Source of the DNA: a virus
IMG/VR virus record: IMGVR_UViG_3300020172_003736
Coordinates: 1 to 42,501 of that record
Direction: 5' to 3' (one strand)
Length of the DNA stretch: 42,501 nucleotides
In this document: positions 8,472 through 29,264 of the stretch, one piece after another
How positions within the stretch are numbered: the stretch's first letter is position 1
How the letters are laid out: each line of letters opens with the position of its first letter
Program-made: the position numbers and the translations under genes
Notes under the pieces: generated by a model
What the model saw: only the letters and a program-made list of their open reading frames with translations
Databases searched by the model: none
What the model was told of the DNA's origin: nothing

Positions 8472-8516
<45 letters not shown>

Positions 8517-8533
8517 ATTAAACAAAGGGTTTG

Positions 8534-8574
8534 CGGTAGAAAGCCCTAAAAAGCTTTCTACCAACCTTCTACCA
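8534..8574. other. Right arm-type sites of attP
   Basis: TTCTACCA at 8556-8563 and 8567-8574 (11-bp step), preceded by an inverted near-copy CGGTAGAA at 8534-8541. The 10-bp inverted repeat GGTAGAAAGC (8535-8544) and GCTTTCTACC (8553-8562) is perfect. The sites end 15 bases before the integrase ATG, so integrase binding could also repress its own gene. Confidence 0.65.
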
Positions 8575-8589
8575 CGAAAAATCAAAACC

Positions 8590-9591
8590 ATGGCCTTTCT
8601 TGCAAAGAAAAAAAACATTTTTTACATTTGCGAGAAATTCAAAGCTAATGGCTCATGGTCAACCAAATGGGTCAAGATTGGCAACATTGCACCGACACAG
8701 GCCAAGGCTGTTCTTCTACGCTACCACAGCGATCAAACCTACCTCAAGCTAGACATGGGCGCCCCTTCGACTTTGACCGTCTCTGAATTGATTTTGGAGT
8801 TCACAGCATGGCAAAAGACCAACACCCGCAAAAAGCCAAAGACAATTCGGGATGAGTTTAACTTTTTGCAACAGGTTGAAAAGCGGTTTGGTGGCGTGCG
8901 AATCGGCAAGTTTGACCATGATGCCTTTACGGCTTGGACAATCGAAAAAGGTTATGAGCCTCAAACGGTGATTCATTACGCTCGCGCCACGCGGCTCATG
9001 TTCAAGTTTGCCATGCTCAAACGGTATCTCAATTTCAACCCAGCGGACAAAATCACACGGCCAAAATTGATTCGTAAACCGCCCAAATTTGCACAGCACG
9101 AAGATGTGATGAAAGTTTTTGAGGCCATGGATATCTATGAGCGTGCCCCGTTCATGTGCATGTACTACGCCGGACTGCGCCCGTCAGAAGCGTTTCGGCT
9201 CAAGGTCAAAAACATCAATCTCAAAACCAATTCAATTGATCTGTATCCCGACCAAACAAAGACCGCTGAAAGTGGGATTCTGCCCATGCACTCCGAACTT
9301 GTGCCACTCTTTAAAAAATTGATTGCCGAAAAATCTAAAGATGATTTTTTGTTTGTGGGCAAGAATGGACACGTTGTTGACTTGTCAAGGCGCTGGCTCA
9401 AGGCGTGTAAAGAGGCTCGGGTTAAACTTACACAATACCAATTACGGCACACGTTTGCAACGCGGCTGCTTGAAAAAACTGGTGACATTCGTGTTGTGCA
9501 ACAGCTTATGCGCCACAAGTCTATTCAAATGACAACTCGCTATGCTACTGCTCTTGATTCAAGGTTGCGTGATGCAATTGACAATTTTTAA
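8590..9591 (+). CDS. int: Tyrosine recombinase integrase
   Basis: 333 residues from the ATG at 8590. The N-terminal arm-binding and SAM-like domains cover about 1-160. The catalytic domain shows Arg197 (YAGLRPSEAF), Lys224 (QTKTAESG), QLRHTFAT with Arg286, His309 (MRHKS) and the nucleophile Tyr318 (TTRYAT). The first position of the usual H-x-x-R box is Tyr283, a tolerated change. The open frame continues upstream to 8473 but that part translates the tRNA core and arm sites, so it is not used. It catalyses integration and excision at the tRNA-Pro site. No ribosome site is obvious before the ATG. Confidence 0.92.
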   Translation: MAFLAKKKNIFYICEKFKANGSWSTKWVKIGNIAPTQAKAVLLRYHSDQTYLKLDMGAPSTLTVSELILEFTAWQKTNTRKKPKTIRDEFNFLQQVEKRFGGVRIGKFDHDAFTAWTIEKGYEPQTVIHYARATRLMFKFAMLKRYLNFNPADKITRPKLIRKPPKFAQHEDVMKVFEAMDIYERAPFMCMYYAGLRPSEAFRLKVKNINLKTNSIDLYPDQTKTAESGILPMHSELVPLFKKLIAEKSKDDFLFVGKNGHVVDLSRRWLKACKEARVKLTQYQLRHTFATRLLEKTGDIRVVQQLMRHKSIQMTTRYATALDSRLRDAIDNF

Positions 9592-14513: not shown

Positions 14514-15956
14514 TTAAAATGCTCCGCCAGCAGGTGAATATGGACTTGAAAGGGCAAAATTGAACCGATAGGTTCTGAGTGAATCGTTCCCGTCGTCGAT
14601 AAAAGCAACCTCATTACCGTTTAATGCCGCCAATGCTGGAGCACCAGCTCCTGGAGTTGCTATAGAGTTACCAACCAACTCCCACGTTGCACCATCAAAA
14701 CTACACATTCGTATCACGTCAGTTTGGTCGTCAAAAAATACAATGTCTTTGCTGTTTAAAGCTGCAATTGCAACAGCACCAGTAGAAGCAATAGAAAGGC
14801 CAGCTCCGACCAACGACCATGCTGCACCATTCCAGTCGTAGACTCTGAGTGAGTCGTTTCCCGAGTCAAAAAATGCAACTCTTGTACTGCTTAAAGCTGC
14901 AAGAGCTGGGTTGCCAATCGTTGATATTGAAAGCCCTGCTCCGACTTGCGCCCACGTTGCACCATTAAAACTATAAACTCTTAAAGAATCATTTGTATTA
15001 TCAAAAAACGCAACATCTGTACTATTTAAAGCTGCAAGTGCTGGAGTTCCAACTGTTGCAATCGCAAGGCCAGCTCCGACCAACGACCATGCTGCACCAT
15101 TCCAGTCGTAGGCTCTGAGTGAGTCGTTCGTGCTATCTACAAATGCAACTCTTGTACTGCTTAAAGCTGCAAGAGCTGGGTTCCCAACCGTTGCAATCGC
15201 AAGGCCAGCTCCGACCAACGCGTATGCTGCACCATCAAATCTATATGTTCGAAGTGAATCGTTCGTGCTGTCGATAAACGCAACATCTGTACTATTTAAA
15301 GCTGCAAGTGCTGGAGTTCCAACCGTTGCAATCGCAAGGCCAGCTCCGATAAGTTCGGGCCTTGTCCAATTTATAACCATCTCCGTGCTTCCAAGTTTTA
15401 TTTCTCGAAACAAATGCTCTGTTTTTGTAATAAAATTTTGAAGATTTGCACCACTTCGACGAAAAACGACAAGTTCAAGATGAGCCTCATCAGCAGTTAA
15501 AGATGCTTCATCGACAATGACATATTCACCAGCAGCAAGCGTGCCGTATGTTCCTGCAGTCAAAGTTTCATCGGTTGTAGCTGTCGATTTTTTCACAAGC
15601 AAAACTTGCCCATCACCAATTGTCAAAGGTGAGTCTGCAGAATCAATTCTATTTATATAAACCGTATCTTCTTCACGAAAATGAATTTCAATATCATCTG
15701 CAAATGAGATGCTACCTCCAAGCCAATTGATGTTTGAATCTGATCGAATAAAATTTGTTTTAACCTGTTCTGATCCTTGGTTTCTAAAAAAGTTCAACCA
15801 TGTGTAAATTGCATAAAGTAACCAATTCAAAAATTCAAAAGGCGGCTTTTCTTCTGATAAAAAACCAACGTCTTTTTTTGCATCACTTGGCTCGGATGTA
15901 TATGATGCAGGGTTTGTATCTGCCCATCTCGGTAAATTTTGGGGTGCTTCTGCCAT
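14514..15956 (-). CDS. Tail fibre protein with six 45-residue repeats (probable beta-propeller)
   Basis: 480 residues from the ATG at 15956 (AAGGAATA upstream). The N-terminal 60 residues (LPRWADTN..., then EKPPFEFLNWLLYAIYTWLNFF) are a known phage fibre attachment pattern, expected to dock on the DUF2612 or baseplate end. Residues about 203-470 are six repeats of 45 residues with the core LVGAGLAIATVG-PALAAL-ST-VAF-DS-NDSLR-Y-(F/W)(D/N)GA, which suggests a beta-propeller or similar receptor-binding head. No signal peptide. It is translated directly after the DUF2612 gene. Confidence 0.85.
   Translation of the reverse strand: MAEAPQNLPRWADTNPASYTSEPSDAKKDVGFLSEEKPPFEFLNWLLYAIYTWLNFFRNQGSEQVKTNFIRSDSNINWLGGSISFADDIEIHFREEDTVYINRIDSADSPLTIGDGQVLLVKKSTATTDETLTAGTYGTLAAGEYVIVDEASLTADEAHLELVVFRRSGANLQNFITKTEHLFREIKLGSTEMVINWTRPELIGAGLAIATVGTPALAALNSTDVAFIDSTNDSLRTYRFDGAAYALVGAGLAIATVGNPALAALSSTRVAFVDSTNDSLRAYDWNGAAWSLVGAGLAIATVGTPALAALNSTDVAFFDNTNDSLRVYSFNGATWAQVGAGLSISTIGNPALAALSSTRVAFFDSGNDSLRVYDWNGAAWSLVGAGLSIASTGAVAIAALNSKDIVFFDDQTDVIRMCSFDGATWELVGNSIATPGAGAPALAALNGNEVAFIDDGNDSLRTYRFNFALSSPYSPAGGAF
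14547..15350 (-). repeat. Six tandem 135-bp coding repeats
   Basis: The period is 135 bp (45 codons). Repeats 1 and 3 share PALAALNSTDVAF, while 2 and 4 share PALAALSSTRVAF with a (D)WNGAA(W)SL end. This gives a 270-bp higher-order unit and suggests duplication of two-blade pieces. Repeats 5 and 6 are more diverged. Confidence 0.85.
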
Positions 15957-15966
15957 AAAATATTCC

Positions 15967-16548
15967 TTAAACCAAACTTGAGAGTTTACCGCCCAATGAC
16001 AAATCTGCCAAAGTGCCAAACCCTAAAGCGTTAATGTCGCCAGCAAATCCAAAAGCTTCATCGTCATCGAACCAGCCAACATAATCAAGCCGCACACCGA
16101 CACACAAAACCTCTTGGCAAAACGTTTTAATGTCGTCAGTGTTAAGTGCTGAAATATCTAGGTTTGCCATGATCGCACAAGCACCGCCGCCGATATTCAT
16201 GTAATGACTGCGCGTGCTTCCAGTCAGTAAATTAAAAATTGCAATCAAATCTTCTCGAGTCCCATTGCTTACGTTTTGCCCAATTTTTGCATAAATATAG
16301 TTTTCATAGTCTTCATCTGACCGGCCCTGTCTTTCTGCACCAACAATTTTGCCAACTCGATCAAGCTGCACTCCGATTGCGTCGCCTAAATAAGTCCCAT
16401 GAATAACCTGATAAGCTGCGGTTTCAATATCCTGCAATTGGTTCACAATTGCCGTGATTAAGCCCTCGATTTTGACCTTGCCCTTGAATTGATCAGTCAA
16501 ACGATCAATCGCTTGTGCCGCGTGGTTTGTAGTTTCTACAATTTGCAT
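15967..16548 (-). CDS. DUF2612-type baseplate protein
   Basis: 193 residues. The run IVNQLQDIETAAYQVIHGTYLGDAIGVQLDRVGKIVGAERQGRSDEDY is the DUF2612 signature (a region before the fibre, functionally comparable to P2 gpI), with YIYAKIGQNVSNGT and YVGWFDDDEAFGFAGD following. It should link the baseplate wedge J protein to the fibre. The ATG at 16548 overlaps the J stop by one base (TAATG), so translation is coupled. Confidence 0.85.
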   Translation of the reverse strand: MQIVETTNHAAQAIDRLTDQFKGKVKIEGLITAIVNQLQDIETAAYQVIHGTYLGDAIGVQLDRVGKIVGAERQGRSDEDYENYIYAKIGQNVSNGTREDLIAIFNLLTGSTRSHYMNIGGGACAIMANLDISALNTDDIKTFCQEVLCVGVRLDYVGWFDDDEAFGFAGDINALGFGTLADLSLGGKLSSLV

Positions 16549-18332
16549 TAGCTTAACACCGTAATCACAACGCGTGATGAATCCCATGCACTGATTTGAT
16601 TTGACTCAATGGCAATGTTATCATCTGAGTGTGATGTTGTTTTTATTTCAGTACTTGCTTGGCTTGCGCCGTTTGCAACTTCGACGTCATGCAATACCGC
16701 CGGGACACCAGCGGTTTGACTTGTGATTGTAATTTCTCGCGTGCCTGTTACTGTTGCCGTGACAATCAATGATTCGCTTTGTAGCTGTGCCGCAAGTGCC
16801 GTCATTGTGGCCGCATGGCTTGTGGCATAGGTAACAGTCGAAGTGCCTGCAACACCTGAAAGCATATAAGAAACGACGTTGCTTGCGACAAGATCAGCGT
16901 CAAAAGTTAAAGTTTGCACAAGCGCTGTGCTTGCGGTTGAAATTCTTATGTCGTAATCAGTAATCCCAATTACACCGCCTGTTTGAGATAGAGCACCAGC
17001 TATTGAAAGAGTTCCAAAAACAATTGCGTCATCACCAATAGAAAAATTTTCTTCAGCATAATCAACAATTTGAGTTTTCAAACTTGCTGGGCCGCTTGCA
17101 TCTGGAAAATCTGTGTTTGTGCGCAAATCAACTTCAAGATAAACATCGATCTCAGTTGGACGTGAAAATTTAATATCTTCTGAAAACCCTTGAGAATCTT
17201 CAAGTGAAACTGTGGTGCTTCCGTAGTATGTAATTCCTGCTGGAAAGTTTTCGTTTAACTCGTTTGAAATATCTTCGTCAGTTCCACCCAGAACAACAAC
17301 TTCGCAAGAGTGAGGCGGGCGACCACTTGAATCTGTTGTGTCATCTCTATTTGTATAAACAACGCAAGCAGCAACATCATCTAGAGCAAGAATTTTTTGA
17401 CGAATGCCGACTTTTGTTGATTTGCCAAATGCTGCAAGTGAAGCCTCGCGGCGAATTCTCAACTCTGAATCTGTTTCAATGTCTGAGCCAACGGTCGCGT
17501 CAAGTGAGTTTGTGACTGAATTCAACCCGCTTACCGGCGTGTCAATTACTGTCAACGAACCTGCTGCGGCTTCAAGAGCGCCGGCCACAAGTGCCGTGCA
17601 TTCAATGTCAACGTTAGGCAAAACGCCTTGTGTTGTTTCAGCGACTGAGATTGAGACCGAGACTGCCGAAAGCTCAAGCGTGTTGTCTACTGTGGTTAAA
17701 AGCTCTTGGTCTTGCTCACCATCTGAGCCTGTGAATGTAACAACAAATCCAGTTGAGAAATTGCCTGTTACCGTAACCGCCGAAAGGCTCGGAAGGCCGT
17801 TCAATTCGCTTTCAACCGTTGCCGCATTGTCACTATAAAGAATTGCGTTTGTTTCGTCTCCGTCAAACACAAGCTTAAACTCGCCACCATCTGGTACTGA
17901 ATCAAAAGTAATTGTTTGAACTTCGTCAACGCCATTGCCGATTATAGCGGCTGCATCTGTCCCGAATTGAACGTCTGGATTTCCATCGACTGAAAAAATT
18001 GTATCTTCTGGAACTGTTGTTCCGTTTGTGCCGTAAACCGTGACTGTTGCTGTTGAATACGTGGCCTCAAGTCGTGTAAATCCTGTAAGAGCAACAATTT
18101 TATCTAGCAAAACCCCTTCGGCTGAATCGGGATCATACATATTATAAAGCGACTCTAAAACTTCCCAAACCAAAGTTTCGCGTTCTGAAATAATTGCTTT
18201 TATTTTACCAAGCAAACCAGTTTCAAGCGTGTTGACGCCGTTTCCAAGATATGTGCGCAAATCAGCAACCAACTCGGCCTTCACCTCATCGTACGTCTTA
18301 ATCGTCAGTCCTGTTGTGCTAAGTCCTGCCAT
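16548..18332 (-). CDS. Baseplate J-like protein
   Basis: 594 residues. The N-terminus (LTIKTYDEVKAELVADLRTYLG, NMYDPDSAEGVLLDKIVALTGFTRLEAT) and the body (DSELRIRREASLA, GKSTKVGIRQKILALDDVAACVV) are J/gp6-type wedge protein. Two extra domains interrupt it: about 136-222 (VQTITFDSVPDGGEFKLVFDG) and about 471-566 (VQTLTFDADLVASN). The second splits the ordinary J C-terminus between TDYDIRIS and DDNIAIESNQISAWD. It forms the baseplate wedges around the hub. Confidence 0.9.
   Translation of the reverse strand: MAGLSTTGLTIKTYDEVKAELVADLRTYLGNGVNTLETGLLGKIKAIISERETLVWEVLESLYNMYDPDSAEGVLLDKIVALTGFTRLEATYSTATVTVYGTNGTTVPEDTIFSVDGNPDVQFGTDAAAIIGNGVDEVQTITFDSVPDGGEFKLVFDGDETNAILYSDNAATVESELNGLPSLSAVTVTGNFSTGFVVTFTGSDGEQDQELLTTVDNTLELSAVSVSISVAETTQGVLPNVDIECTALVAGALEAAAGSLTVIDTPVSGLNSVTNSLDATVGSDIETDSELRIRREASLAAFGKSTKVGIRQKILALDDVAACVVYTNRDDTTDSSGRPPHSCEVVVLGGTDEDISNELNENFPAGITYYGSTTVSLEDSQGFSEDIKFSRPTEIDVYLEVDLRTNTDFPDASGPASLKTQIVDYAEENFSIGDDAIVFGTLSIAGALSQTGGVIGITDYDIRISTASTALVQTLTFDADLVASNVVSYMLSGVAGTSTVTYATSHAATMTALAAQLQSESLIVTATVTGTREITITSQTAGVPAVLHDVEVANGASQASTEIKTTSHSDDNIAIESNQISAWDSSRVVITVLS
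16635..16922 (-). other. Inserted domain in baseplate J (copy A of a shared virion domain)
   Basis: Residues about 471-566: VQTLTFDADLVASN, then TYATSHAATMTALAAQLQ, then VTATVTGTREITITSQTAG and GASQAS. Similar segments lie in the sheath and the cement protein. The DNA at 16805-16832 matches 28781-28808 of the cement gene in 27 of 28 positions. Confidence 0.85.
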
Positions 18333-18335
18333 TTT

Positions 18336-18686
18336 TTAAAGCTCTCTCACTATTGTAAAATCAATAAATCCATCATTAGTTAAAATTTCAGACGAAACGC
18401 TCAATGTGTCATTTTCATACTCAAAATCTAAACTTAAAATCTCAATCACACCCTGCGTTTCGACAATCTCATTCATAAAAACATTTTGAATTTGTGTGTA
18501 ATTTGGATTTGCCACAAAAACTTCTTCGAAATATGGAAAACCAATTTCAGTATCAAACGCCCATTCACCTTGGATATCACCAAACTTGTTTTTTAAATGT
18601 TGTTCAATAGCCTCTACTCCCTCGGTCAATTCGAGATCGTATGAGGACAAATCAAGATCGCCAGTGCTATCAAGTTTTAAATCCAT
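18336..18686 (-). CDS. gp25/gpW-like baseplate wedge protein
   Basis: 116 residues: DLDLSSYDLELTEGVEAIEQHLKNKFGDIQGEWAFD followed by GFPYFEEVF, the layout of the T4 gp25/P2 W and DUF2634-like family. These proteins bridge sheath and wedge. It lies three bases before J and overlaps the preceding gene by one base. Confidence 0.85.
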   Translation of the reverse strand: MDLKLDSTGDLDLSSYDLELTEGVEAIEQHLKNKFGDIQGEWAFDTEIGFPYFEEVFVANPNYTQIQNVFMNEIVETQGVIEILSLDFEYENDTLSVSSEILTNDGFIDFTIVREL

Positions 18687-18916
18687 TAGATAATTGACAA
18701 ATTATGGGTATCGAGTCTCGAATCCGTTCCCGTTGCTTTTGCGTTTGTTTGTATGTGAGTGACGATCGCTGAGGCTATTGCTCCGTAGAGAAGCGCGTCA
18801 TATTGAGCTTTTGTGAGTCCAACTCTGTGATCGTTGGGATATGCTGTAAAATCTGGCATTGCAGCATTTATCGCTGCGACAATCTCATTTTTGAGATTCG
18901 TTGCATTCATTGCCAT
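18686..18916 (-). CDS. Small baseplate-region protein
   Basis: 76 residues: NLKNEIVAAINAAMPDFTAYPND, then KAQYDALLYGAIASAIVTHIQTNAKATGTDSR. Genes of this size and pattern are common between spike and wedge genes of phages, with no known function. GGAGG precedes the ATG at 18916. Confidence 0.7.
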   Translation of the reverse strand: MAMNATNLKNEIVAAINAAMPDFTAYPNDHRVGLTKAQYDALLYGAIASAIVTHIQTNAKATGTDSRLDTHNLSII

Positions 18917-18941
18917 CTATAGCCTCCTTATTTTAAACCCT

Positions 18942-19631
18942 TTAGTCTTTCTTTTCAACAAAAGTTTCGAGCTTCGCCAATATTTCTGCGAATTCAAAAT
19001 GCCTTAGTGGTTGCGGGCCTGTCGATCCAAGAACAACAGCCTCACTTCCCGCGATTGCTTTCACAAATCTATAAAGCAACCTTATCAATTCGTCGGTTTG
19101 GTTGATGACTTGGAACTTTCCATTTTGTTTTATTCTGATCTCTGTTTTTTTTCCGCTGCGTGTGTTCTTGATGATTATATCTTGATCATTGTTCAAATCG
19201 GCTTTGTTGCTGTAGGGGAACAAGCCAGCCACCGCATAAGCATCAGATAAATGGTGTTTTCGCACATCTTCAGGGTCTACCGTGCCGCCTGTTTGCATCC
19301 ATTTGTCGATTGATCGCTCTGTAAAGTGCAGCATCACATAATCACCAACCTGAATTGGCATGGCAATGATTGCGGCACTTGTGCGCTGAAACATAACCGG
19401 AACTTTTGGTATTTTTGGCATCTCCAAAATGCGACCGTCAGGGAACTTCTTTTTAAGCACCGGAACACAATCAACCGTCGGTCCTTCTTTATCATAAGCC
19501 ACAACTCGTGCCGGAAAGCATGTGTGTGTGTCTAAAAGCTTGGCATCAACCGCGGCCTTTATAACGCTTGTCAGATCAAAGTCTTCTTCGCCGCTTTCCT
19601 GCGGTTCTTTTGTGAAAAGAAAATTTGGCAT
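18942..19631 (-). CDS. Baseplate spike protein (Gp138 N-terminal domain)
   Basis: 229 residues. HTCFPARVVAYDKEGPTVDCVPVLKKKFPDGR followed by VPVMFQRTSAAIIAMPIQVGDYVMLHFTERSIDKW matches the Gp138 OB-fold used by myophage membrane-piercing spikes. KHHLSDAYAVAGLFP is also typical. A strand-rich part (IIIKNTRSGKKTEIRIKQNG) follows. No metal-binding HxH tip is evident. It overlaps the hub gene by one base. Confidence 0.85.
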   Translation of the reverse strand: MPNFLFTKEPQESGEEDFDLTSVIKAAVDAKLLDTHTCFPARVVAYDKEGPTVDCVPVLKKKFPDGRILEMPKIPKVPVMFQRTSAAIIAMPIQVGDYVMLHFTERSIDKWMQTGGTVDPEDVRKHHLSDAYAVAGLFPYSNKADLNNDQDIIIKNTRSGKKTEIRIKQNGKFQVINQTDELIRLLYRFVKAIAGSEAVVLGSTGPQPLRHFEFAEILAKLETFVEKKD

Positions 19632-20428
19632 TATTTTGAAGCCTCACAAATTGAATAAAATGGGCCTTCTTCGCTGTCGCCATCTTGTAAAACTGTTAGA
19701 ATTTTATAGACCCCATTGACACGATCGCTTGTGATTTTGACCCGCCTTCCCGGGGTTAAACGAGGCTGCAAAAGGCTTTTAAACTCAATTCCATTTTTTG
19801 TTTTTGACGGGCTTTCAATCAATCCTGAATTTTGGTCCAATTCAATAATAGTGTCTAAAGTAAACCCTGACTTTGGCATGATTTGAATTGTTTCATTTTG
19901 TACTGACCATTCTAGGTTGCTTTTTTCACAAAGTTCGTCGATCGCGTCTCTTGCCATACCTGAATAGCAATAGCCCTTTTTGTAACGCGTTGTCGGAATA
20001 CCTGAAATGCTACCGCGTGCAAATCCTGACTCGTTTATTAGATCGTCAAAAATATATTGAATTGATGTGTCGGGTGGAAAGCTTTTGTTAAAAATTGAAG
20101 TGCGAAAAGCGTTGTCACCGTCACGAACTTCAATTTTTGTTTCCCAATCAACATCCTGCTTTTTTTCAACAACCTTTGTGATATTTCCTGCGGCAATAAC
20201 CTCGCTTGTATCTCTATATCCAGCCAGCAAAACGATTCTCGTGCTTTGTTGAGCAACAAGACTTCTGTTTTCTTCATTCATGTTTAGAATGGTGATTTCG
20301 CCATTGTTCAAAGATGATTTATTTGTTTTTTTTATTTTGAATTGAACGCGCAACTTTGTAATGAGCTTAGGCGTGCCAAGCTGAGGGATAATTTGGACGG
20401 CAACTTGTCTTGAAAATAAATCTGTCAT
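19631..20428 (-). CDS. Baseplate hub protein (gp27/gpD-like)
   Basis: 265 residues. Position (after the plug, before the spike) and pattern (LRVQFKIKKTNKSSLNNGEITILNMN, IVLLAGYRDTSEVIAAGNITKV, MARDAIDELCEKSNLEWSVQNETIQIMP, SGLIESPSKTKNGIEFKSLLQPRLTPG) fit the hub family of Mu-like and related myophages. It anchors the spike to the tube. It overlaps both neighbours by 1-4 bases. Confidence 0.8.
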   Translation of the reverse strand: MTDLFSRQVAVQIIPQLGTPKLITKLRVQFKIKKTNKSSLNNGEITILNMNEENRSLVAQQSTRIVLLAGYRDTSEVIAAGNITKVVEKKQDVDWETKIEVRDGDNAFRTSIFNKSFPPDTSIQYIFDDLINESGFARGSISGIPTTRYKKGYCYSGMARDAIDELCEKSNLEWSVQNETIQIMPKSGFTLDTIIELDQNSGLIESPSKTKNGIEFKSLLQPRLTPGRRVKITSDRVNGVYKILTVLQDGDSEEGPFYSICEASK

Positions 20429-20754
20429 GCTGCTTTCTCATACAAAAGAACACATCTGTCGCCAAGTTCATCAAACCCGCACTCTTCGTCAGTTCCAGAA
20501 GTATCAAACAAAATCATTGTGCCTTGTGGCATTGAATTACTTTTATATTTTTTTATGACGTTTGTGTTCACCATCAGCGGGATACTCATATTTATTTCAT
20601 TCTCATCCGCGTCAAAAATGTCCATCACCCACAATTCAATCCTTGTGTTCCAACGAAACCTCAAAATAAAATCGACTCCATCAAGCGTTGTTGTGAATTT
20701 AAATCTTGAAAGCCCTGTGCTAGAGTCTGCTGGTATTTTTTGAATATCTGCCAT
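20425..20754 (-). CDS. Baseplate plug-like protein
   Basis: 109 residues, strand-rich: FKFTTTLDGVDFILRFRWNTRIELWVMDIFDADENEI, then a SIPLMVNTNVIKKY segment and LGDRCVLLYEKA. This pattern resembles small baseplate plug proteins encoded between Dit-like and hub genes. The assignment is from pattern and position only. Confidence 0.7.
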   Translation of the reverse strand: MADIQKIPADSSTGLSRFKFTTTLDGVDFILRFRWNTRIELWVMDIFDADENEINMSIPLMVNTNVIKKYKSNSMPQGTMILFDTSGTDEECGFDELGDRCVLLYEKAA

Positions 20755-20756
20755 TT

Positions 20757-21401
20757 TTACCTGAAGAGATTAAATAGTGTTTTTGCGTATGAGTTATTTA
20801 CCTTCGAGCTTGGTGACGTACTCAACGGTTGGTTTTCTGGTATTGTATCGGTTTTCAAGTTGCCAAGATTTTGTGTTGTTTGCCCTGTTTTATTCACACT
20901 GGTTGCAAGCCTATCGGATTGAACATCCAAAACCTTTGACCCAACTTTTACAATTTGAGTCAGGCTAGCCGTGAAGTGAATCGCGTTTGCTGTTGCTGCA
21001 CTTCGATCAACCGTGATTTCTTCAAGAATCATATTCTTGTAAACTTTCAAGTTTGTTATGACGCTGAAGGTTTCTCGCTTATTTCTAAGATCAACAAGCT
21101 TGTTGAATGCGTCAATTGAACGCTTTGATTTTCCGATAATTGTTGAAACAAAATCACGAACGTTTAAATTTGGATTCCTAATTAGGCCAAACACGCTTGG
21201 AGTGTCTGAAATAACACCTTTGATTTTTAACTCGAAAGGCAAAAGGCGAACGTGATCCGTGACGTCAACGCCATCTTCAACAGGGTTTCTTGTTGCAACA
21301 GCTTTTGCCGAATGGGTTTCTTCAACGGAGGCGTCAATAATGATGTTCCCGATTTCAGTTCTTTTGCTGCCAAATAAAATATTTAATACTGATCCTGCCA
21401 T
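20757..21401 (-). CDS. Dit-like baseplate protein
   Basis: 214 residues, starting MAGSVLNILFGSKRTEIGNI. The sequence DASVEETHSAKAVATRNPVEDGVDVTDHVRLLPFELKIKGVISD is characteristic of Dit-like N-terminal domains at the tube end. The last 60 residues are polar and low in complexity. It lies between the tape measure and the plug protein, as expected for the first ring of the baseplate. Confidence 0.8.
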   Translation of the reverse strand: MAGSVLNILFGSKRTEIGNIIIDASVEETHSAKAVATRNPVEDGVDVTDHVRLLPFELKIKGVISDTPSVFGLIRNPNLNVRDFVSTIIGKSKRSIDAFNKLVDLRNKRETFSVITNLKVYKNMILEEITVDRSAATANAIHFTASLTQIVKVGSKVLDVQSDRLATSVNKTGQTTQNLGNLKTDTIPENQPLSTSPSSKVNNSYAKTLFNLFR

Positions 21402-21404
21402 TTA

Positions 21405-22976
21405 TCACACCCCAGCCGTTTCAAGATCGCGCTTAGTATTTCTAAACATACGTGAAGCTTCATCACGAATTTTTTCAGAAATTTTATTTGCGATATCCAT
21501 TCCACCTTCTGTGCCATTCATGTTGACATTGATTTCTGGCTTGAATTCAATATTTTGCTCAACGGTATTGCCACCAACCTTATTTGCTGTCGGCACAGTG
21601 CTTTTGATCGCGCTTAAAGCTCCAAAATTTGAAAAGCCACTTGCAAAGTTTGCAACTTTTCCAATGGTCTCCATTTTTGAAGCGATAAATGAAAACGTGT
21701 CAAATAACGCATTTGTTATGGATTCTTTAATGTAAGAGCTGATTTCTGTGAATAGCGTCACAAAAAATGTTTTAATTTTTGTAATCGCCGTTTGAGATAA
21801 ATCAAAGGCACTTGCAAAAAATGTGTTAACGGTTTCGTTTTTACCCTCAAATATTCTAAGCAATTCTTGCATACTAATAATGATGTTTGTAATCTCAACG
21901 CCAAATCGCGAATAAGATTTTTTTAAATCATCAGCATTTTTTATCATGAATTCAGAATTTCCACCGCTTAACCCTGTGTGCAAATCTTGAATTGTTAAAG
22001 CTACAGTGCCAATGGCCGCCGCCAATAAAGTCCAAGGTAAAATTGCGCTGCCAGTCAAAAACAAAGTCACAGTTTTGATCAGTCCGAACAATGGCAACAA
22101 AGCATTAAAAATATTTATCAACCCACCTATGGCCCACGCGCTCGCTAGGCCACCAAGCAAGTAAGATAGAGTTCTGACATTTCGAATCAAAAATCTAATT
22201 GCATCAACAAACTTTTCTGCATATTCTCTGATTTTTATTTTTATGAATTCTTTATTCACTTTCGCCCAAGCGATTGTGTCGTGCATGATGTCGTTAAAAA
22301 GAGGCATCAATTCTTCAGCCAAAGTGATTTTAAGCCCAAGAATAAAGGTTTTCATGCGCAACATCGAGTCGTTAAAATCTTCACTCGTACGGGCAAAATC
22401 TTCACTGATTATCGCGCCAAGGTCTTGCAATTCAAGTCCCTGATTCTTTATTGATTCAGAACCTTCATTCAATAAATTGATAAGTTGTGCGCCAGATTTC
22501 CCGAATAGCTGTTGAGCAATGGCTGTTTTTTCATAACCGTTTTTCATGCCCTTAAACCTATCGGCTATTTTTAGGAATGCGTCGTTTGTATCTTTGAAAT
22601 TTTTTGGGTCGAGCTTTAAAGTCTCAAAGGCTTTCAAAGCCTCGCCAGTTCCTAACTTTGAATCGAGAAGATTACGCGAAAATCTTGTGATGCCGTTTCG
22701 GAACGTCTCAATATTTGTGCCAGCAAGCTCTGCCGCGTATGAGTATTTTTGCAAATCTGCAATTGACAAACCGATGCGTGCTGAATTTTTTGCAAGCTCA
22801 TCGCCCATGTCCGAAATGTGTTTTGTTAAATAGAAAAGACTAGCACCAAATGCAGAAATTACGCCAACCGCAACAGTCATGGAGTTTCTGACCGAGCTGA
22901 TTTGACCCTCAAAGCTTTTCAACTTTGAAGAATCAACATTGAAACCTAGTTTTGTGACTAGCTCGCGGACTTCCAT
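21405..22976 (-). CDS. Tail tape measure protein
   Basis: 523 residues. The N-terminal pattern FNVDSSKLKSFEGQISSVRNSM, then AKNSARIGLSIADLQKYSYAAELAGTNIETF and KTAIAQQLFGKSGAQLINLL is typical of tape measures, with hydrophobic segments at about 32-50 and 275-330. The protein runs inside the tube and sets its length. At about 1.5 angstrom per residue it predicts a tail near 75-80 nm, short for a myophage. Its start is three bases after the frameshifted chaperone stop. Confidence 0.88.
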   Translation of the reverse strand: MEVRELVTKLGFNVDSSKLKSFEGQISSVRNSMTVAVGVISAFGASLFYLTKHISDMGDELAKNSARIGLSIADLQKYSYAAELAGTNIETFRNGITRFSRNLLDSKLGTGEALKAFETLKLDPKNFKDTNDAFLKIADRFKGMKNGYEKTAIAQQLFGKSGAQLINLLNEGSESIKNQGLELQDLGAIISEDFARTSEDFNDSMLRMKTFILGLKITLAEELMPLFNDIMHDTIAWAKVNKEFIKIKIREYAEKFVDAIRFLIRNVRTLSYLLGGLASAWAIGGLINIFNALLPLFGLIKTVTLFLTGSAILPWTLLAAAIGTVALTIQDLHTGLSGGNSEFMIKNADDLKKSYSRFGVEITNIIISMQELLRIFEGKNETVNTFFASAFDLSQTAITKIKTFFVTLFTEISSYIKESITNALFDTFSFIASKMETIGKVANFASGFSNFGALSAIKSTVPTANKVGGNTVEQNIEFKPEINVNMNGTEGGMDIANKISEKIRDEASRMFRNTKRDLETAGV

Positions 22977-22978
22977 TT

Positions 22979-23607
22979 TTACTTACCTGCTTTTTTTATT
23001 TTCTGGCATTCTTTCCACTCAAGATATTCTTTTAAGTCCAACCACTCGTTTGCATCGGCAATCTCATCTATTGTCCAAAGGTTTTTAACTTCCAACAAAG
23101 AACCCATGCCGGCATCAACTGGCCGCATGATCCAAACCTTTACGCCTTGCAAATTTGTTTTTAGTCCGGCCCCTTCGGATTCTACTGGCCTTTTTGAATG
23201 GGGCTTGCGGCTAAAAAATCGCTGTACTCGAATTGCAACACCTCACGCGCCAATTTAAATGCTGCGAGAATACCAGAATTGAAGCACGAGTTAAAATTTA
23301 AAGGTAAAGCTTTGTCGCCTTGCTCGTTAAAAACTCTTGAGTGTGACAAAATACGTTTGAGAAGTTCAAGTTTCGATTTTGAATCACCGGCACTGTTGAA
23401 AGATTTTAAAGCGGTCATTATGCTATCCATGACGCCTTGATTTTCAACTTGTTCTTCGGATTGCAAAACTCCGGTGATGATAAAACGAAACAAGGATTCG
23501 CCAAGAAAGTTCAACAGGTCAAAAAGCAAAATAGTTGATTCTTCACCCGGAAATCTTTCCAACAAAAACTTTTGATCCCCAATATTCAAAGTTTTGTCAT
23601 TTTTCAT
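22979..23607 (-). CDS. Tail assembly chaperone, -1 frameshift product (G-T type)
   Basis: The 141-aa frame at 23607 ends in a stop at 23182, but the -1 frame is open from before it to a TAA at 22981-22979, adding about 70 residues (RPVESEGAGLK..., later WTIDEIADANEWLDLKEYLEWKE). A shift at CAAAAAGG (23196-23189), where Lys-tRNA can move from AAA to AAA, gives a 209-residue fusion. This two-product arrangement just before the tape measure is the standard G/GT system. The extension fills the only otherwise empty 200 bases of the tail operon. Confidence 0.8.
23182..23607 (-). CDS. Tail assembly chaperone, unshifted product (G type)
   Basis: 141 residues, mostly helical: FLLERFPGEESTILLFDLLNFLGESLFRFIITGV, then LKSFNSAGDSKSKLELLKRIL, ending ASPIQKGQ. 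Size, helical content and position between tube and tape measure fit tail assembly chaperones. It overlaps the tube gene by one base (ATG in TAATG). Confidence 0.8.
   Translation of the reverse strand: MKNDKTLNIGDQKFLLERFPGEESTILLFDLLNFLGESLFRFIITGVLQSEEQVENQGVMDSIMTALKSFNSAGDSKSKLELLKRILSHSRVFNEQGDKALPLNFNSCFNSGILAAFKLAREVLQFEYSDFLAASPIQKGQ
23189..23196 (-). other. Probable -1 frameshift site of the tail chaperone
   Basis: CAAAAAGG on the coding strand, read CAA-AAA-GGC in the zero frame, five codons before the stop. It is not the strict X-XXY-YYZ heptamer. GGCC repeated about 20 bases later can form a short stem. The exact slip codon is inferred. Confidence 0.6.
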
Positions 23608-24020
23608 TAGCTAATACCTCCAACATACATTTCTAAAACACCCATGTTGATAGTCCACTCTCGAGAGCCAGTTTCAACGTCAAAGCTTATGTCAGCAGGC
23701 TTTGCAATACGGCCTTCGCCTACCACTAAAGTCGTTCCGTTCACATCTTTGATTGAAACAATAACGGGCGCATTCAAGCCAAGCTCGCCGGCAACATGAA
23801 GGCCGGAAAGGTAATCATTGCTTGATGATGACTGATCTACAGGCAAGGTCACAACGCCGCTTCGGTCGTTTGATTTTGAATATGTTGGCGATCCACCATT
23901 ATCTACTGTTGTTGAGTACATATCAGAATTTCTTGAAGCTTGAATAGCTCCTTTGATTCCTGAGATTGTAACTCCGTCAACTGTTACGATGACGGCTGTT
24001 GAATCATAAGTTTTTGACAT
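23607..24020 (-). CDS. Tail tube protein (DUF3277-like)
   Basis: 137 residues: TAVIVTVDGVTISGIKGAIQ, then MYSTTVDNGGSPTYSKSNDRSGVVTLPVDQSS, with ISFDVETGSREWTINMGVL at the end. This is the DUF3277/phage tube pattern of Mu-like and related contractile tails. It lies directly after the sheath and forms the inner tube through which DNA passes. Confidence 0.87.
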   Translation of the reverse strand: MSKTYDSTAVIVTVDGVTISGIKGAIQASRNSDMYSTTVDNGGSPTYSKSNDRSGVVTLPVDQSSSSNDYLSGLHVAGELGLNAPVIVSIKDVNGTTLVVGEGRIAKPADISFDVETGSREWTINMGVLEMYVGGIS

Positions 24021-24036
24021 TTAAAACTCCTTCAAA

Positions 24037-25383
24037 TTAAGAACTAAGGTTTCCAGTGAAATAGACCCTGTCGATTGATCCGGCGAAAACCGCTGACCAT
24101 TCTACACCACGCAAAATTCCAGCAGCTTTATCGGCTGGATCAATATCGGCAAGAGCTGGCACACTAACTGTGAATTTATTTTCTGGGTCTGTAGAAAGAA
24201 TCCCCTGATTTTCTGCATCTTGCATTACGCCTGTAACAATTGATTCAACTTCAACGAGTCCTGAAATTGTAAATGGCAAGGCCGCAACTTTTGAAAAACG
24301 GTCAAGCATTCGCTCCTGCAGTCTTGCATAAATCCAATCCTCACCTCGAATGTTTTCGATTTTTGTTCCGTCGGATGTTACGCCCGGGAAAGTGCGATAG
24401 TTATCATTCCCAAAACGAACATATGCGTTTGCATTTTTAGCAATTAAGTTTGCATATTCGGTTTCAGTCAAATTCGAACCAGTTATTCCTGTTGGTTGTT
24501 GGTAAGTCCATTTTGTTTTACCAACCGTGTATGGTGCAACAGTTCCAGTCCAAGCAGAATCAAAATAATCTGTGTTTGTTTCGTTGTAAGCAACAAAAGT
24601 TCTACTGTATGAATTTGCTAAAAGTGTTGCCGCAATATCTGTGGTTGATCCTGAATCTAAAACGTCGGTGTCTGCTGTGCGCAAACCAAAAAGCTTTCGT
24701 TTCGTTTCAACCCAAGCTGCTGCCAATTCTAAAACTGCTTGTGTTGTTGAAACCAAATCCAAAAAATAAAAATCGGGATCGTTTTGGTCAATTGCCGTTA
24801 GGTCTTCAGTGATCCCAACGTTGGCGGTTGTGGTTGCAATTGTTGCAGTTGGGTTTGTGGCCCCGCCTGTTGAAACAAAGCTTGAAAGCGTACAAGGCAA
24901 ACCTGCTGTTTGCGCTGTAACTGTGATTTCTCTTGGCCCGGTAACTGTGGCGGTCGCAACTAAGCTGCTTGCCTGAATGGCTGCGGCGAGTGCCGTCATA
25001 GTCGTGTTGTGGTTTGTAGTAAACGCAACTGGTGTTATGGCTGTACCGCCAACAGTTCCGGAAACAGTGCTGCTAGTCACAAGGTCGCCGTCAAACGTTA
25101 AAGTTTGAACCATTGCAACCGCTGTGTCACGCAAAGCAACTTTTACTTGCTGAACCCTTGGGGATTGAGCAAAGTATTTGCTAGCTTTTAAATATTCGGG
25201 ATCAGTGGCAACAAATCCATCATCAAGCATCGCAGAAAGGCCGGTATAAGTGGAAACTTCGCCCGCTGCCAAATCGCTTGTTGTTGTTTCACCAACAATC
25301 AAGGGAGTTCCGAAACCTGCTTGACTCACGTTATTTGCTGAACGCGTGATGGAAATGTTAATAATATTTGAAATATCTACCAT
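24037..25383 (-). CDS. Tail sheath protein (DUF3383-like) with inserted domain
   Basis: 448 residues. The start (ISNIINISITRSANNVSQAGFGTPLIVGET), LKASKYFAQSPRVQQVKVAL, AAWVETKRKLFGLRTAD and the C-terminus (ERMLDRFSKVAALPFTISGL, VEWSAVFAGSIDRVYFTGNL) match DUF3383 sheaths. About 97 residues (91-187) interrupt the N-terminal third and belong to the domain also found in J and cement. The sheath contracts at infection. The insertion should lie on the outside. Confidence 0.88.
   Translation of the reverse strand: MVDISNIINISITRSANNVSQAGFGTPLIVGETTTSDLAAGEVSTYTGLSAMLDDGFVATDPEYLKASKYFAQSPRVQQVKVALRDTAVAMVQTLTFDGDLVTSSTVSGTVGGTAITPVAFTTNHNTTMTALAAAIQASSLVATATVTGPREITVTAQTAGLPCTLSSFVSTGGATNPTATIATTTANVGITEDLTAIDQNDPDFYFLDLVSTTQAVLELAAAWVETKRKLFGLRTADTDVLDSGSTTDIAATLLANSYSRTFVAYNETNTDYFDSAWTGTVAPYTVGKTKWTYQQPTGITGSNLTETEYANLIAKNANAYVRFGNDNYRTFPGVTSDGTKIENIRGEDWIYARLQERMLDRFSKVAALPFTISGLVEVESIVTGVMQDAENQGILSTDPENKFTVSVPALADIDPADKAAGILRGVEWSAVFAGSIDRVYFTGNLSS
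24823..25113 (-). other. Inserted domain in the sheath (copy B of the shared virion domain)
   Basis: Residues 91-187: MVQTLTFDGDLVTSSTV, FTTNHNTTMTALAAAIQ, VATATVTGPREITVTAQTAG and a Thr-rich end. It is close to the J copy (VQTLTFD, TMTALAA, ATVTG-REIT-T-QTAG). Confidence 0.85.
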
Positions 25384-25397
25384 GTGGAATTCTCCTT

Positions 25398-25898
25398 TTA
25401 CTCAAGATTGTATTCATCAGCATTGACAATAACCGTTTGAATCGCACCAACGTCGTCGGTGTATTCTTGTCCGTATCTCAATGCTATTTCTAAAAATAAC
25501 CGCCGCTCAAATTTTGTTTCGAGCAAAAAACTTAAATCTCTGGCTGCTGAAACGCTAACAACCGCAACTTGATTATCCCTAAAGTATTCATCCAAAACAG
25601 TTTCTTTAGAAAGTGATTGCCGAACCGATTCGACAACTTCGTTTGCTTCGTCTCCAAAAATATTTATCTGCAAAAGTGCTTTTCTGAATCCTCTGATTTG
25701 CATCGTTGTCGGACTACCAGAATCAACAATGCCTAACTGTTCGTCGCGCTGACCTTCAGGCGTCGTTAAAACCAAATCAACCGTGGCATAAGGCTTTTCT
25801 GGCCTTGGGGCGCTCTGCATGGCGTTTATGAGCTGACAAGTCGTGATCTCAGTTGACCAAAAATCATAAAAAAGATTTTTTAACTCGTCGTCTGTCAT
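25398..25898 (-). CDS. Neck terminator-like protein
   Basis: 166 residues: MTDDELKNLFYDFWSTEITT, then YATVDLVLTTPEGQRDE and GFRKALLQINIFGDEANEVVESVRQSL. The order, just before the sheath, and the pattern resemble phage neck terminator proteins (LIC_12616-like). It should cap the tail and join it to the head. It overlaps the preceding gene by 4 bp. Confidence 0.72.
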   Translation of the reverse strand: MTDDELKNLFYDFWSTEITTCQLINAMQSAPRPEKPYATVDLVLTTPEGQRDEQLGIVDSGSPTTMQIRGFRKALLQINIFGDEANEVVESVRQSLSKETVLDEYFRDNQVAVVSVSAARDLSFLLETKFERRLFLEIALRYGQEYTDDVGAIQTVIVNADEYNLE

Positions 25899-26254
25899 AA
25901 GCTTTTTTCAACAGCTATAATTTTGTAATGGTTTAAAACATCGCCTTTATATGGCAAAACCACGTGAACCTCGAAAGTAACGCCTTCATAATCAAATTCG
26001 TCTGCCTTTTTGCTTTCGCTCTCTCTGGCCGTCAACAATTGTGTTTCGGTGTAACCCTTAATTGTTTGCTTCGTTCTTTGGCCTTCTGGCAACTGCAAAA
26101 GCTCTTTGCCACTCAATGGCTGCAAACTTATTTCAACATCAAAAGTTGATGTTGTTCCAGCTACATAATCAAGGCCAGAATAAGAGCCACCTTCAAACCG
26201 AGTGAAAGTCACGGTCTCGGAAAACTCTTCAATCAAATCGCTTGTGTCACTCAT
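25895..26254 (-). CDS. Head-tail joining protein
   Basis: 119 residues, beta-rich: FSETVTFTRFEGGSYSGLDYVAGTTSTFDVEISLQPLSGKELLQLPEGQRTK and HVVLPYKGDVLNHYKIIAVE. It looks like a head-closure or joining protein from this pattern and its place after the tail-completion protein. It overlaps neighbours on both sides. Confidence 0.72.
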   Translation of the reverse strand: MSDTSDLIEEFSETVTFTRFEGGSYSGLDYVAGTTSTFDVEISLQPLSGKELLQLPEGQRTKQTIKGYTETQLLTARESESKKADEFDYEGVTFEVHVVLPYKGDVLNHYKIIAVEKSL

Positions 26255-26741
26255 CGTTGACCTCGAAATCGATCGACTGTCTTAGCCTTCCGGTGTCGAT
26301 CAATGGCCTGCTGCTGCCTTTTTTAGCGACAGTTTTTGGTTTATTAGCTTCAAAAGAACCAGTTCTAAACGTCTCTTGAATTTTGCCTTTGTACCAAATA
26401 CCAATCTTGTTTGCGCCAGTCTTCAAATCGTGTGCGCCTGAGTAAAAGCCCGACACAACCGCATCGATAAATTTTTTGGTGTTGGCACTGTTCTTTTCAT
26501 ACGTTTGTGCAATGAATGGCCTTGCCGAAATTCCTTTTGAAGGAACCCCATATTCCATCATGATTGCGAGTTTAGGCAAATCAATATTACTTCCTTCGCC
26601 TTTGCCTTCAACGTCTGAATGAACATTATAATTATGCTCACCACCGCCGCCGATCACACCAATCTTCACAACCAACCGACTTGAATCGAGAAGCTGTTTT
26701 TTTATGCGCTTCCAACCTTTGTCGATCTCTTTAACGCTCAT
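26247..26741 (-). CDS. Tail completion protein (gp10/Mu G-like)
   Basis: 164 residues: VVKIGVIGGGGEHNYN, then IMMEYGVPSKGISARPFIAQTY, then KGSSRPLIDTGRLRQSIDFEV. The SARPFI and PLIDTGRLRQSI motifs mark the phage neck/tail completion family. It overlaps DUF4054 by 4 bp. Confidence 0.82.
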   Translation of the reverse strand: MSVKEIDKGWKRIKKQLLDSSRLVVKIGVIGGGGEHNYNVHSDVEGKGEGSNIDLPKLAIMMEYGVPSKGISARPFIAQTYEKNSANTKKFIDAVVSGFYSGAHDLKTGANKIGIWYKGKIQETFRTGSFEANKPKTVAKKGSSRPLIDTGRLRQSIDFEVNDE

Positions 26742-27082
26742 GTTAACACCGACGGGCCTTTGCCTTTTGCTTTTGAGGAAATGGCTTTAAACATTACCCC
26801 ATAAGATGTTTCGCCTAGAACCGCCGCACTCAATGGGTTTGCGTAATTCGTTTGAATGTCGCCAACCTTTTTGCTCGTAACGCTTGCACTTCCAACCGTT
26901 GACATTGCATCAAGCTTCAACATATGCGCCGCTAAATAAGCGTGCGCTTGATCATATAAGTTCCCGAAATAAGTTTCGGAGATTTGATCGCTTGCAAAGT
27001 TCAAATACAGGCCGATTTTCGTTGTATCAGTAGCGGCAAATTCAGAAAATAAAGCCTGAATGTCAGCCGCTGCGATCGTCAC
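26738..27082 (-). CDS. DUF4054-like head-tail adaptor
   Basis: 114 residues: LFSEFAATDTTKIGLYLNFASDQISETYFG, AHAYLAAHMLKLD, SKKVGDIQTNYA and ETSYGVMFKAI. These match DUF4054 connectors, which bind under the portal. It overlaps the preceding gene by 4 bp. Confidence 0.82.
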   Translation of the reverse strand: MTIAAADIQALFSEFAATDTTKIGLYLNFASDQISETYFGNLYDQAHAYLAAHMLKLDAMSTVGSASVTSKKVGDIQTNYANPLSAAVLGETSYGVMFKAISSKAKGKGPSVLT

Positions 27083-27402
27083 TTGTTGCCTTTGGTTTTA
27101 GGCCCACGTTTTTTCTTCATTTCAGCAACAACATCGTCTTCAGTTGATTCTTCAACTTTTGAATCCTCAACACCTTGCTCAACAGCGTTTTTATTTTGTG
27201 GCATCATAAATGAAAGCAAATCATTGTCGAAAAAGATTTGAATATCACTTGATAGAACACCGTCTTTTTTACATTTTTCCCAAAGTTCTTCGCTGACTTC
27301 GTTCACGCCCGGAACCAGAACCAACGCTTCAGGCTTGCCTTGAGCGTTTTTTCCGATCTTGTGAGTGAAAAAATGTTTCTTTTTGAAATTTAATTTCAAC
27401 AT
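27079..27402 (-). CDS. Hypothetical head-region protein
   Basis: 107 residues: KKHFFTHKIGKNAQGKPEALVLVPGVNEVSEELWEKC, then an acidic stretch and the basic end KKKRGPKTKGNK. The PGVNEVSEELWE pattern is seen in small phage head-region proteins. No function is known. It lies between capsid and adaptor. Confidence 0.65.
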   Translation of the reverse strand: MLKLNFKKKHFFTHKIGKNAQGKPEALVLVPGVNEVSEELWEKCKKDGVLSSDIQIFFDNDLLSFMMPQNKNAVEQGVEDSKVEESTEDDVVAEMKKKRGPKTKGNK

Positions 27403-27428
27403 AATGCTATTCCCCTTTTAAAATAGTT

Positions 27429-28442
27429 TTATACGCCTTGATAAATGTTAACGCTCAACGGATAACGAATCACCAAACCGCCTGTTTTTGCCACAGTATC
27501 AAATTGGGTTTCGCTGTGTTCGCGTTGACCTGCTTTGACTGTGAATGGTTTTGGTGTTTGAATGAAAAGTTTTTTGGGGTCTGCTTTGAAAGCAACCATC
27601 AAATCACCTGAAAGCGTTGACGAAGGCATGACGCTTGTCCAACCTGCAGTTGGCTCTTGCAATTCATAGCATTTCACGATTGATTTAATCATCGGATTTT
27701 TGTCTAAGAATTGTTGATAAACAGTTTGGTTACTGTTTGTGCCAACAAGAGTGCGAAAGATCGCATTCCAAGGCGCAGGCGCCAAAGCAATGGTGTCGGG
27801 TTTTTCAACGCCATTTGTTGAATCTTCAATATCCTGAACTACATCATGCAAATCAGTCAGCATTTCTTCTGCTGATTTATCTTCAAACAAACGTGAAGTT
27901 GTTGCAGCATTCAAAGGGGCTGTTGTTACAGGCACGTTTGCGTTGCTCAAAAGTCCGGGCAAGTTGTAAGTTTCATCGCCATAAAATGCGATTGTATTTA
28001 CAAAATCATCTGAAGCAATTTTGCAAGCTTCTGAACTTGTGCGATCAAGAGGCAAACCAGTTGCAGAAGCCGCTTCCAACTCATCATCGGTGAAAGAATA
28101 ATATTGGCCATGCTCTTTGATTGTGCCTGTAACATCGCGTGCTGTTAAAGCAATTTTTTCAAAGTCTTTTGCGTAATCATTAATTACTTTTGACTTACCG
28201 AAACGCTCAATTACTTTATAAGCAAAGGCTGTTGCCCATGAAGCTGCAGTCGAAAGACTTGGAAACAATTTGATTGCTTTTCCTTCTGGAACCTCGACCA
28301 TGTAAAGTTCTTTTTCGATGGTTTTCAATTCGTTAGAAATGAAAAGTGAATCAATTCGCTTCCCAGAATCACTAGCAATTTTTTGAACTAAAGAATCGTA
28401 GTGTTTTTCTTTGTTCAGCAATTCGTCATTTTTGTGTACCAT
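27429..28442 (-). CDS. Major capsid protein (DUF2184-like)
   Basis: 337 residues. The DUF2184 pattern is visible: GTIKEHGQYYSFTDDELEAA, FVNTIAFYGDETYNLPGLLSNANV, PDTIALAPAPWNAIF and VKAGQREHSETQFDTVAKTGGLVIRYPLSVNIYQGV. HK97-type fold by family. No N-terminal prosequence is obvious. It follows the cement protein, as in other phages of this head type. Confidence 0.88.
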   Translation of the reverse strand: MVHKNDELLNKEKHYDSLVQKIASDSGKRIDSLFISNELKTIEKELYMVEVPEGKAIKLFPSLSTAASWATAFAYKVIERFGKSKVINDYAKDFEKIALTARDVTGTIKEHGQYYSFTDDELEAASATGLPLDRTSSEACKIASDDFVNTIAFYGDETYNLPGLLSNANVPVTTAPLNAATTSRLFEDKSAEEMLTDLHDVVQDIEDSTNGVEKPDTIALAPAPWNAIFRTLVGTNSNQTVYQQFLDKNPMIKSIVKCYELQEPTAGWTSVMPSSTLSGDLMVAFKADPKKLFIQTPKPFTVKAGQREHSETQFDTVAKTGGLVIRYPLSVNIYQGV

Positions 28443-28463
28443 TTTGTTTTTTCTCCTTAGGTA

Positions 28464-29264
28464 TTATTTCAACAACAAACCAGCGACACTGTTTTCAGTG
28501 TTGACAGTCCATTTTGCGGTTGTAATTTGCACGGCTGTTGAACCGTCAGAATCATTTCTGAATTTTCCAGCGTCAGAATCTTCAACTGAAGTTTGTGTTT
28601 CTGTCGCAACGCCAGTGGCTTGTGATGCGCCGGCTGTTACTGCAATATCTGAAACTGTGAATTCACCGGCTTCACCTGTGTTCAAAGCAGTCAAAGTGAT
28701 TGTGCGTGGTCCTGAGCTTGCAACTGCTGCTCCGATAACACTGCCAAACTGAGCCAAAATCTGTGCTGCAACTGCTGCGATTGTAGCCGCATGGCTTGTG
28801 GCATAGGTGATTTGAGTCATTGCAACGCCATCAATTTTCAAATTAATATTGTTTGATGCAACAAAGTCAGCGTTGAAAGTAATGACTCGAATTTGCTTGC
28901 GGCCAGTGATTCGCATGTAAACATCGTCACCAACTGCAACACTTTCTTCGGTTTGAACCCAAACGTTCCCCTCTTCAAGAACACCCATTGCTGAATTTAA
29001 AGGGTATTCAGTCGCAACGCCTCCGGCTGCTGGGGCTTCAATTTTGTTATCAAGCAATGCTACACCGGCAAAGTCTGCCAACGCATCGCCCGAAGCCGGC
29101 AATCTAACATTACCTTGATTTGAACTGTCTTGAACAACACCGCGACCAAATTCAAGTGTCGTTGCTGTGTTTGCTTTTGTAGAAACACGCTTAGGGTTTG
29201 CGTCAACGATGTTACCCGCTACCGCTCTTGTCATGCTTTGAGAATATGAAGTTTGTACACTCAT
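28464..29264 (-). CDS. Structural cement protein (Gp24-like) with inserted domain
   Basis: 266 residues. The ends match Gp24-like cement: MTRAVAGNIVDANPKRVSTKAN, LEFGRGVVQDSS, FAGVALLDNKIE, VWVQTEESVAVGDDVYMRITG, then DSDAGKFRNDSDGSTAVQI. Residues about 126-225 are an extra domain splitting the usual VYMR...GKFR loop, related to the insertions in J and sheath. It should bind the capsid lattice with the insertion exposed. Confidence 0.85.
   Translation of the reverse strand: MSVQTSYSQSMTRAVAGNIVDANPKRVSTKANTATTLEFGRGVVQDSSNQGNVRLPASGDALADFAGVALLDNKIEAPAAGGVATEYPLNSAMGVLEEGNVWVQTEESVAVGDDVYMRITGRKQIRVITFNADFVASNNINLKIDGVAMTQITYATSHAATIAAVAAQILAQFGSVIGAAVASSGPRTITLTALNTGEAGEFTVSDIAVTAGASQATGVATETQTSVEDSDAGKFRNDSDGSTAVQITTAKWTVNTENSVAGLLLK
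28590..28889 (-). other. Inserted domain in the cement protein (copy C of the shared virion domain)
   Basis: Residues about 126-225: VITFNADFVASNNINLKIDG, TYATSHAATIAAVAAQIL, RTITLTALNTGEAGEFTVSD, AGASQATG. TYATSHAAT and GASQA(S/T) are shared with J, including near-identical DNA. Confidence 0.85.

Follow-up and report, generated by a model that had tools for sequence, protein, structure and literature searches.

The DNA analyzed here is a single IMG/VR record (IMGVR_UViG_3300020172_003736; 42,501 bases), the whole of which we call the window, and its structural gene cluster is encoded on the minus strand. Three genes of this cluster each carry one copy of a small domain, hereafter the module:

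16548..18332, minus strand: baseplate J (wedge) protein of 594 aa, host of the first module (PF04865, 5.9e-17; phrog_6, 1.1e-52; PDB wedge homologs 9zd7 and 9ndy)
16635..16922, minus strand: module copy in J, residues ~471-566, near the C-terminus, flanked by TDYDIRIS and DDNIAIES (BLASTP, profile search)
24037..25383, minus strand: DUF3383 tail sheath protein of 448 aa, host of the second module (PF11863; phrog_205)
24823..25113, minus strand: module copy in the sheath, residues ~92-186 (BLASTP, full-length model)
28464..29264, minus strand: structural cement (decoration) protein of 266 aa, host of the third module (PF22758 Phage_cement, 1.3e-20; phrog_563)
28590..28889, minus strand: module copy in cement, flanked by DVYMRITGRKQ and DAGKFRN (BLASTP, AlphaFold2)

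The Pfam and PHROG matches bear out the host families that a preliminary description had assigned. Sequence searches of the PDB with the window sheath recover 9zdk, the Bas63 sheath (9mt4) and Pam3 (8hdr), and its full-length model matches the Sf14, Bas63 and phiTE sheaths in Foldseek. By reading, repressor-like and integrase-like genes are present on the plus strand (6263-6913 and 8473-9591), which suggests that the phage may be temperate. A 916-aa protein of the structural region (11553-14303, minus strand) begins with a putative secretion signal (MKKIVKLLSLFLILPSLAYS), which is unusual in a phage virion protein.

The three related segments of the preliminary description are present at the coordinates it gave, and in BLASTP with compositional adjustment the J and sheath copies align at 60% over 77 aa (E 2e-27), the J and cement copies at 45% (E 7e-13), and the sheath and cement copies at 35% (E 2e-9). 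A profile of the three copies, searched against the 42.5 kb record, hits exactly three places at E<=1, all of them known copies, such that within the record the segments match one another only. Judged by sequence, the three ~95-aa segments are beyond doubt homologs and represent one domain family.

An AlphaFold2 model of the cement copy, with an alignment of 39 module copies as input, has a pLDDT of 90.5 and a pTM of 0.84, and shows strands at 2-5 and 14-19, a helix at 33-47, and strands at 51-56, 63-68, 79-85 and 93-96. In the full-length sheath model (pLDDT 89.1 overall, about 91-97 within the module blocks) the corresponding strands lie at 92-97 and 106-111, the helix at 125-137, and the remaining strands at 142-149, 152-157, 166-172 and 180-186. 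The structure predictions that the preliminary description had called for thus give the same order of strands and helix at high confidence in two copies that were predicted separately, while the likeness of the J copy is one of sequence (the 60% to the sheath copy). The module is therefore predicted to be a compact, independently folding domain of about 90 residues with a strand-strand-helix-strand-strand-strand order. Its most conserved positions across copies from all hosts (N13, T36, G87 and Q90) lie outside the strands or at strand ends.

Searches with the module sequence found no family in Pfam or PHROGs and no match in the PDB, and a Foldseek search of the PDB with its fold gave zero matches at E<=0.001. 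The best matches, all of which fall short of this threshold, are mostly virion and flagellar proteins; T7-like tail proteins and the sheath of cyanophage A-1(L) (8kee) are among the top ones, at a non-significant E of about 0.1 and a TM of about 0.5-0.6. A match to the module at 1.4e-6 comes from one predicted viral protein (773 aa). The closest parallel is provided by the phage Ig-like domains (T4 Hoc, the extra sheath domains), which are likewise small domains of unrelated virion proteins, are horizontally exchanged, and have been proposed to play an accessory surface role, as we propose for the module; the same promiscuous occurrence in unrelated virion proteins is found for the module. However, the Ig β-sandwich lacks a central helix, whereas the AlphaFold2 models of the module place a helix of 13-15 residues between the strands, and the module sits in internal loops, unlike the phage Ig-like domains. 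This helix, together with the absence of any Pfam Ig or Big match for all three segments, excludes an Ig-like fold. An intein or homing element was also rejected: the module is only ~95 aa long, has no nuclease or intein family match in Pfam or PHROGs, and on inspection starts with VQTLTFD and has no terminal His-Asn.

To take a census of the module we used searches of viral contigs followed by iterative profile scans of all ORFs, and assigned hosts by the PHROG matches of representatives and by clustering. This yielded 220 copies in 115 phage genome groups, mostly from uncultured phages. The principal hosts are cement (82 copies), the DUF3383 sheath (80), J (15) and the connector (phrog_939; 12), followed by the terminator (phrog_7975; 6) and a second sheath family (phrog_23; 4), with fibre-like, other decoration and other proteins as single cases. 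More than one host family carries the module in 49 of the 115 genome groups. In the window, the genes for two of these families are empty:

25398..25898, minus strand: tail-terminator-like protein, relatives in phrog_7975; module present in the relatives from L009, L120, L172 and others
25895..26254, minus strand: head-tail connector-like protein, relatives in phrog_939; module present in the relatives from L004, L063 and ~10 others

Insertion points were mapped by deleting the modules and then realigning the hosts. This resolved 17 sites in four families (5 in cement, 6 in sheath, 4 in J and 2 in the connector), at each of which some homologs are empty. The window cement site is filled in 10 homologs and empty in 51, the window J site is filled in two (the window and L139) and empty in 6 other J homologs, and at the window sheath site 38 homologs have the module whereas 7 lack it. 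In a sample chosen by the sheath C-terminus, independently of module presence, the module is absent from 43 of 67 sheaths, 26 of 41 cement proteins and 28 of 34 J proteins, and connector and terminator homologs mostly lack it. Once the flanks of the window cement copy are joined, 17 of 18 alignments to module-less homologs run straight through the junction. The module is not integral to its host families, because most homologs lack it, and in this homolog sample it is an obligatory part of none of the J, DUF3383 sheath and cement families. The comparison with relatives lacking the segment, which had been left as a check, and the clean cement junctions thus uphold the initial claim of insertion at loops.

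Several individual cases deserve mention. The J protein of L165 (4477-6759) has, by reading, two tandem modules inside J's own β-β-α-β-β domain. In L119 an ORF (1-2109), cut by the contig end, has a partial module directly ahead of a portal protein, and is either a fusion or an assembly artefact. The fibre-like protein of the window (14514-16019, minus strand), which has five direct repeats spaced 135 nt, resembles in its N-terminus (PRWADTNPAS...FEFLNWLLYAIYTW) the N-terminus of a module-bearing protein (L066, 5758-8070). A record with four module copies (L140; IMGVR_UViG_2617271244_000001) has an isolate-like rather than a metagenome-like name, and is a possible experimental system. A tblastn search of GenBank phages with four module sequences found no matches. 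As sheath and J queries do match in the same collection, GenBank phages seem to lack a close copy of the module at tblastn sensitivity.

The tree of module copies requires at least 43 changes of host family (86 columns, few well-supported branches), between the minimum possible of 5 and the mean of 87 for shuffled hosts, indicating that copies keep to their host gene to some extent but also move. Identity between copies in different host families of the same genome is 0.41, against 0.353 (sd 0.008) in permutations (0/500), a comparison in which kinship of the genomes is not controlled. In L019, the cleanest case, the cement and sheath copies share 53 identical bases in register on one assembled contig, and a tandem pair in L156 has a 98-base exact stretch. 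The L019 tract and the permutations indicate within-genome copying in the relatives. Coordinated occupancy of hosts was considered (Fisher P 5e-4 for sheath-cement and 6e-5 for sheath-J) and set aside, since the independent changes are too few to separate it from shared ancestry.

Taken together, we favor, with a probability of about 0.75 that covers the predicted fold as well, a compact domain that has repeatedly moved and would serve as an accessory in loops of virion proteins. The module sits in frame in such loops, and among phages it has repeatedly come to occupy genes for cement, sheath, baseplate wedge, connector, terminator and fibre proteins, by inheritance as well as by copying within genomes. 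The most likely route would be ordinary recombination between copies with rare illegitimate insertion, because the module carries no element or nuclease. It is best read as an accessory domain of promiscuous habit, equivalent to the phage Ig-like domains but not itself Ig-like. We lean slightly towards the further view that this undescribed non-Ig domain spreads from gene to gene inside single phage genomes by internal copying and conversion, with the result that it is displayed on the surfaces of head, neck, tail and baseplate alike.

With regard to function, the extra domains found in the sheaths of other phages are situated away from the tube, and have been proposed to serve in adhesion or stabilization (PMC9230969). 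In cyanophage A-1(L) the outer sheath density is poor because the loops between domains I and III are flexible, and the wedge has an insertion domain that contacts the hub or holds a tail fibre (PMC10966104). By analogy, the module would face outward as an accessory surface of the particle, which could either bind weakly to surfaces of the host or the environment or add particle-stabilizing contacts. A specific form of the first option is an adhesin, i.e. a weak binder of host surfaces or glycans multiplied over the virion surfaces for avidity. This would parallel the proposal that phage Ig-like domains bind surface carbohydrates (Fraser 2006, quoted in PMC9230969); the hosts are virion proteins, including the high-copy cement and sheath, and the conserved N13, T36, G87 and Q90 could form a putative site. 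However, these positions are possibly just structural, the module has neither sequence likeness to any known binding module nor a significant PDB fold match, and its hosts include the connector and terminator proteins, which form low-copy neck rings. We hold adhesion tentatively; binding appears somewhat likelier than stabilization, and about as probable as stabilization is a neutral module that is simply tolerated and does little or nothing else.

The sheath offers a possible origin for the module. At the module site, module-less sheaths are either empty or contain another β-β-α-β-β domain. This TINGT-type domain, found at the same sheath site in the DUF3383 sheaths of L265, L229 and L070, has an element order similar to that of the module and is aligned across it in the solved sheath 9zdk; its sequence family is different, and sheaths with both domains or neither occur. 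Profile comparison by HHalign gives a probability of 58-63% and a P of 7e-5, versus 0.02 for reversed controls, and the score exceeds those of all reversed and slice controls save a slice that is itself the TINGT domain. Remote kinship of the two is modestly supported by these profiles, and a sheath origin of the module is plausible given the shared site, the 9zdk alignment and the profile similarity. In a stronger version, the module would be an ancestral β-β-α-β-β domain native to the sheath family that has diverged in certain lineages, and the other hosts would have acquired it from the sheath; the sheath copy would therefore be no insertion. The leaning of the Foldseek matches to virion proteins, the 8kee sheath among them, fits this version as well, but its sequence link is weak, the L111 sheath is empty at the site, the sheaths of L006, L072, L073 and L176 hold both domains at different sites, and the module occurs at five other sheath sites too. 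We consider it possible, though less likely than not. J has a second, different domain that is weakly module-like (HHalign 57%):

17628..17927, minus strand: beta-rich domain resident in J, common to L139, L219, L274 and L286

The preliminary description had also read a near-identical stretch shared by two copies as a sign of recent copying within this genome. Base comparison locates it as follows:

16804..16831, minus strand: 28-bp tract of the J copy that matches the cement copy at 27 of 28 bases
28780..28807, minus strand: 28-bp tract of the cement copy that matches the J copy at 27 of 28 bases

The tract itself stands: of 400 codon-usage simulations run on these proteins just 2 reached such a match, and the likeness is probably above chance and confined to the tract. 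The J/cement excess of synonymous codons is largely due to it, with codons elsewhere near background, and the other pairs are at background (J/sheath 22 versus 18.8 expected; sheath/cement 12 versus 10.8 expected). A recent duplication of the whole module in this genome was rejected on the codon test, and that part of the earlier claim is not supported. Both by identity (54%) and in the tree, the J copy is nearest to the window's sheath copy, which would suit recent copying, but the L139 J copy at the same site is close behind (51%), and for the cement copy the nearest relative is the cement copy at the same site in L006 (55%). Recent copying within this phage as the source of the three copies is hence distinctly improbable. 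Background codons and near relatives in other genomes instead indicate that the module is old here, perhaps with a small conversion tract. A search for relatives by the window sheath recovered 7 loci only, at 32-36%, all too distant for dating any of the window insertions.

The notion that the segments belong intrinsically to their three host families, or resemble one another by chance as low-complexity sequence, as their Ala/Thr-rich composition might suggest, has next to nothing left in its favor: it is refuted by the module-less homologs that align across the junctions, and runs against E-values that hold under compositional adjustment, a confident fold model, and the absence of the module from most homologs.

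Domain shuffling among phage proteins was surveyed by Smug et al. 2023 (PMC10684548), where domains are common to functional classes, as is the case with the module; passages of that text stress receptor-binding proteins, endolysins and polymerases, and the word 'sheath' is absent from it. Promiscuous parts of phage particles are usually exemplified by the Ig-like domains, and the module, a domain that Pfam and PHROGs failed to recognize here, would be a second, unrelated fold doing likewise. Its insertions in sheath, wedge and neck proteins reveal which loops tolerate insertion, and these hundreds of natural insertions offer a resource for testing what surface domains of this kind do.
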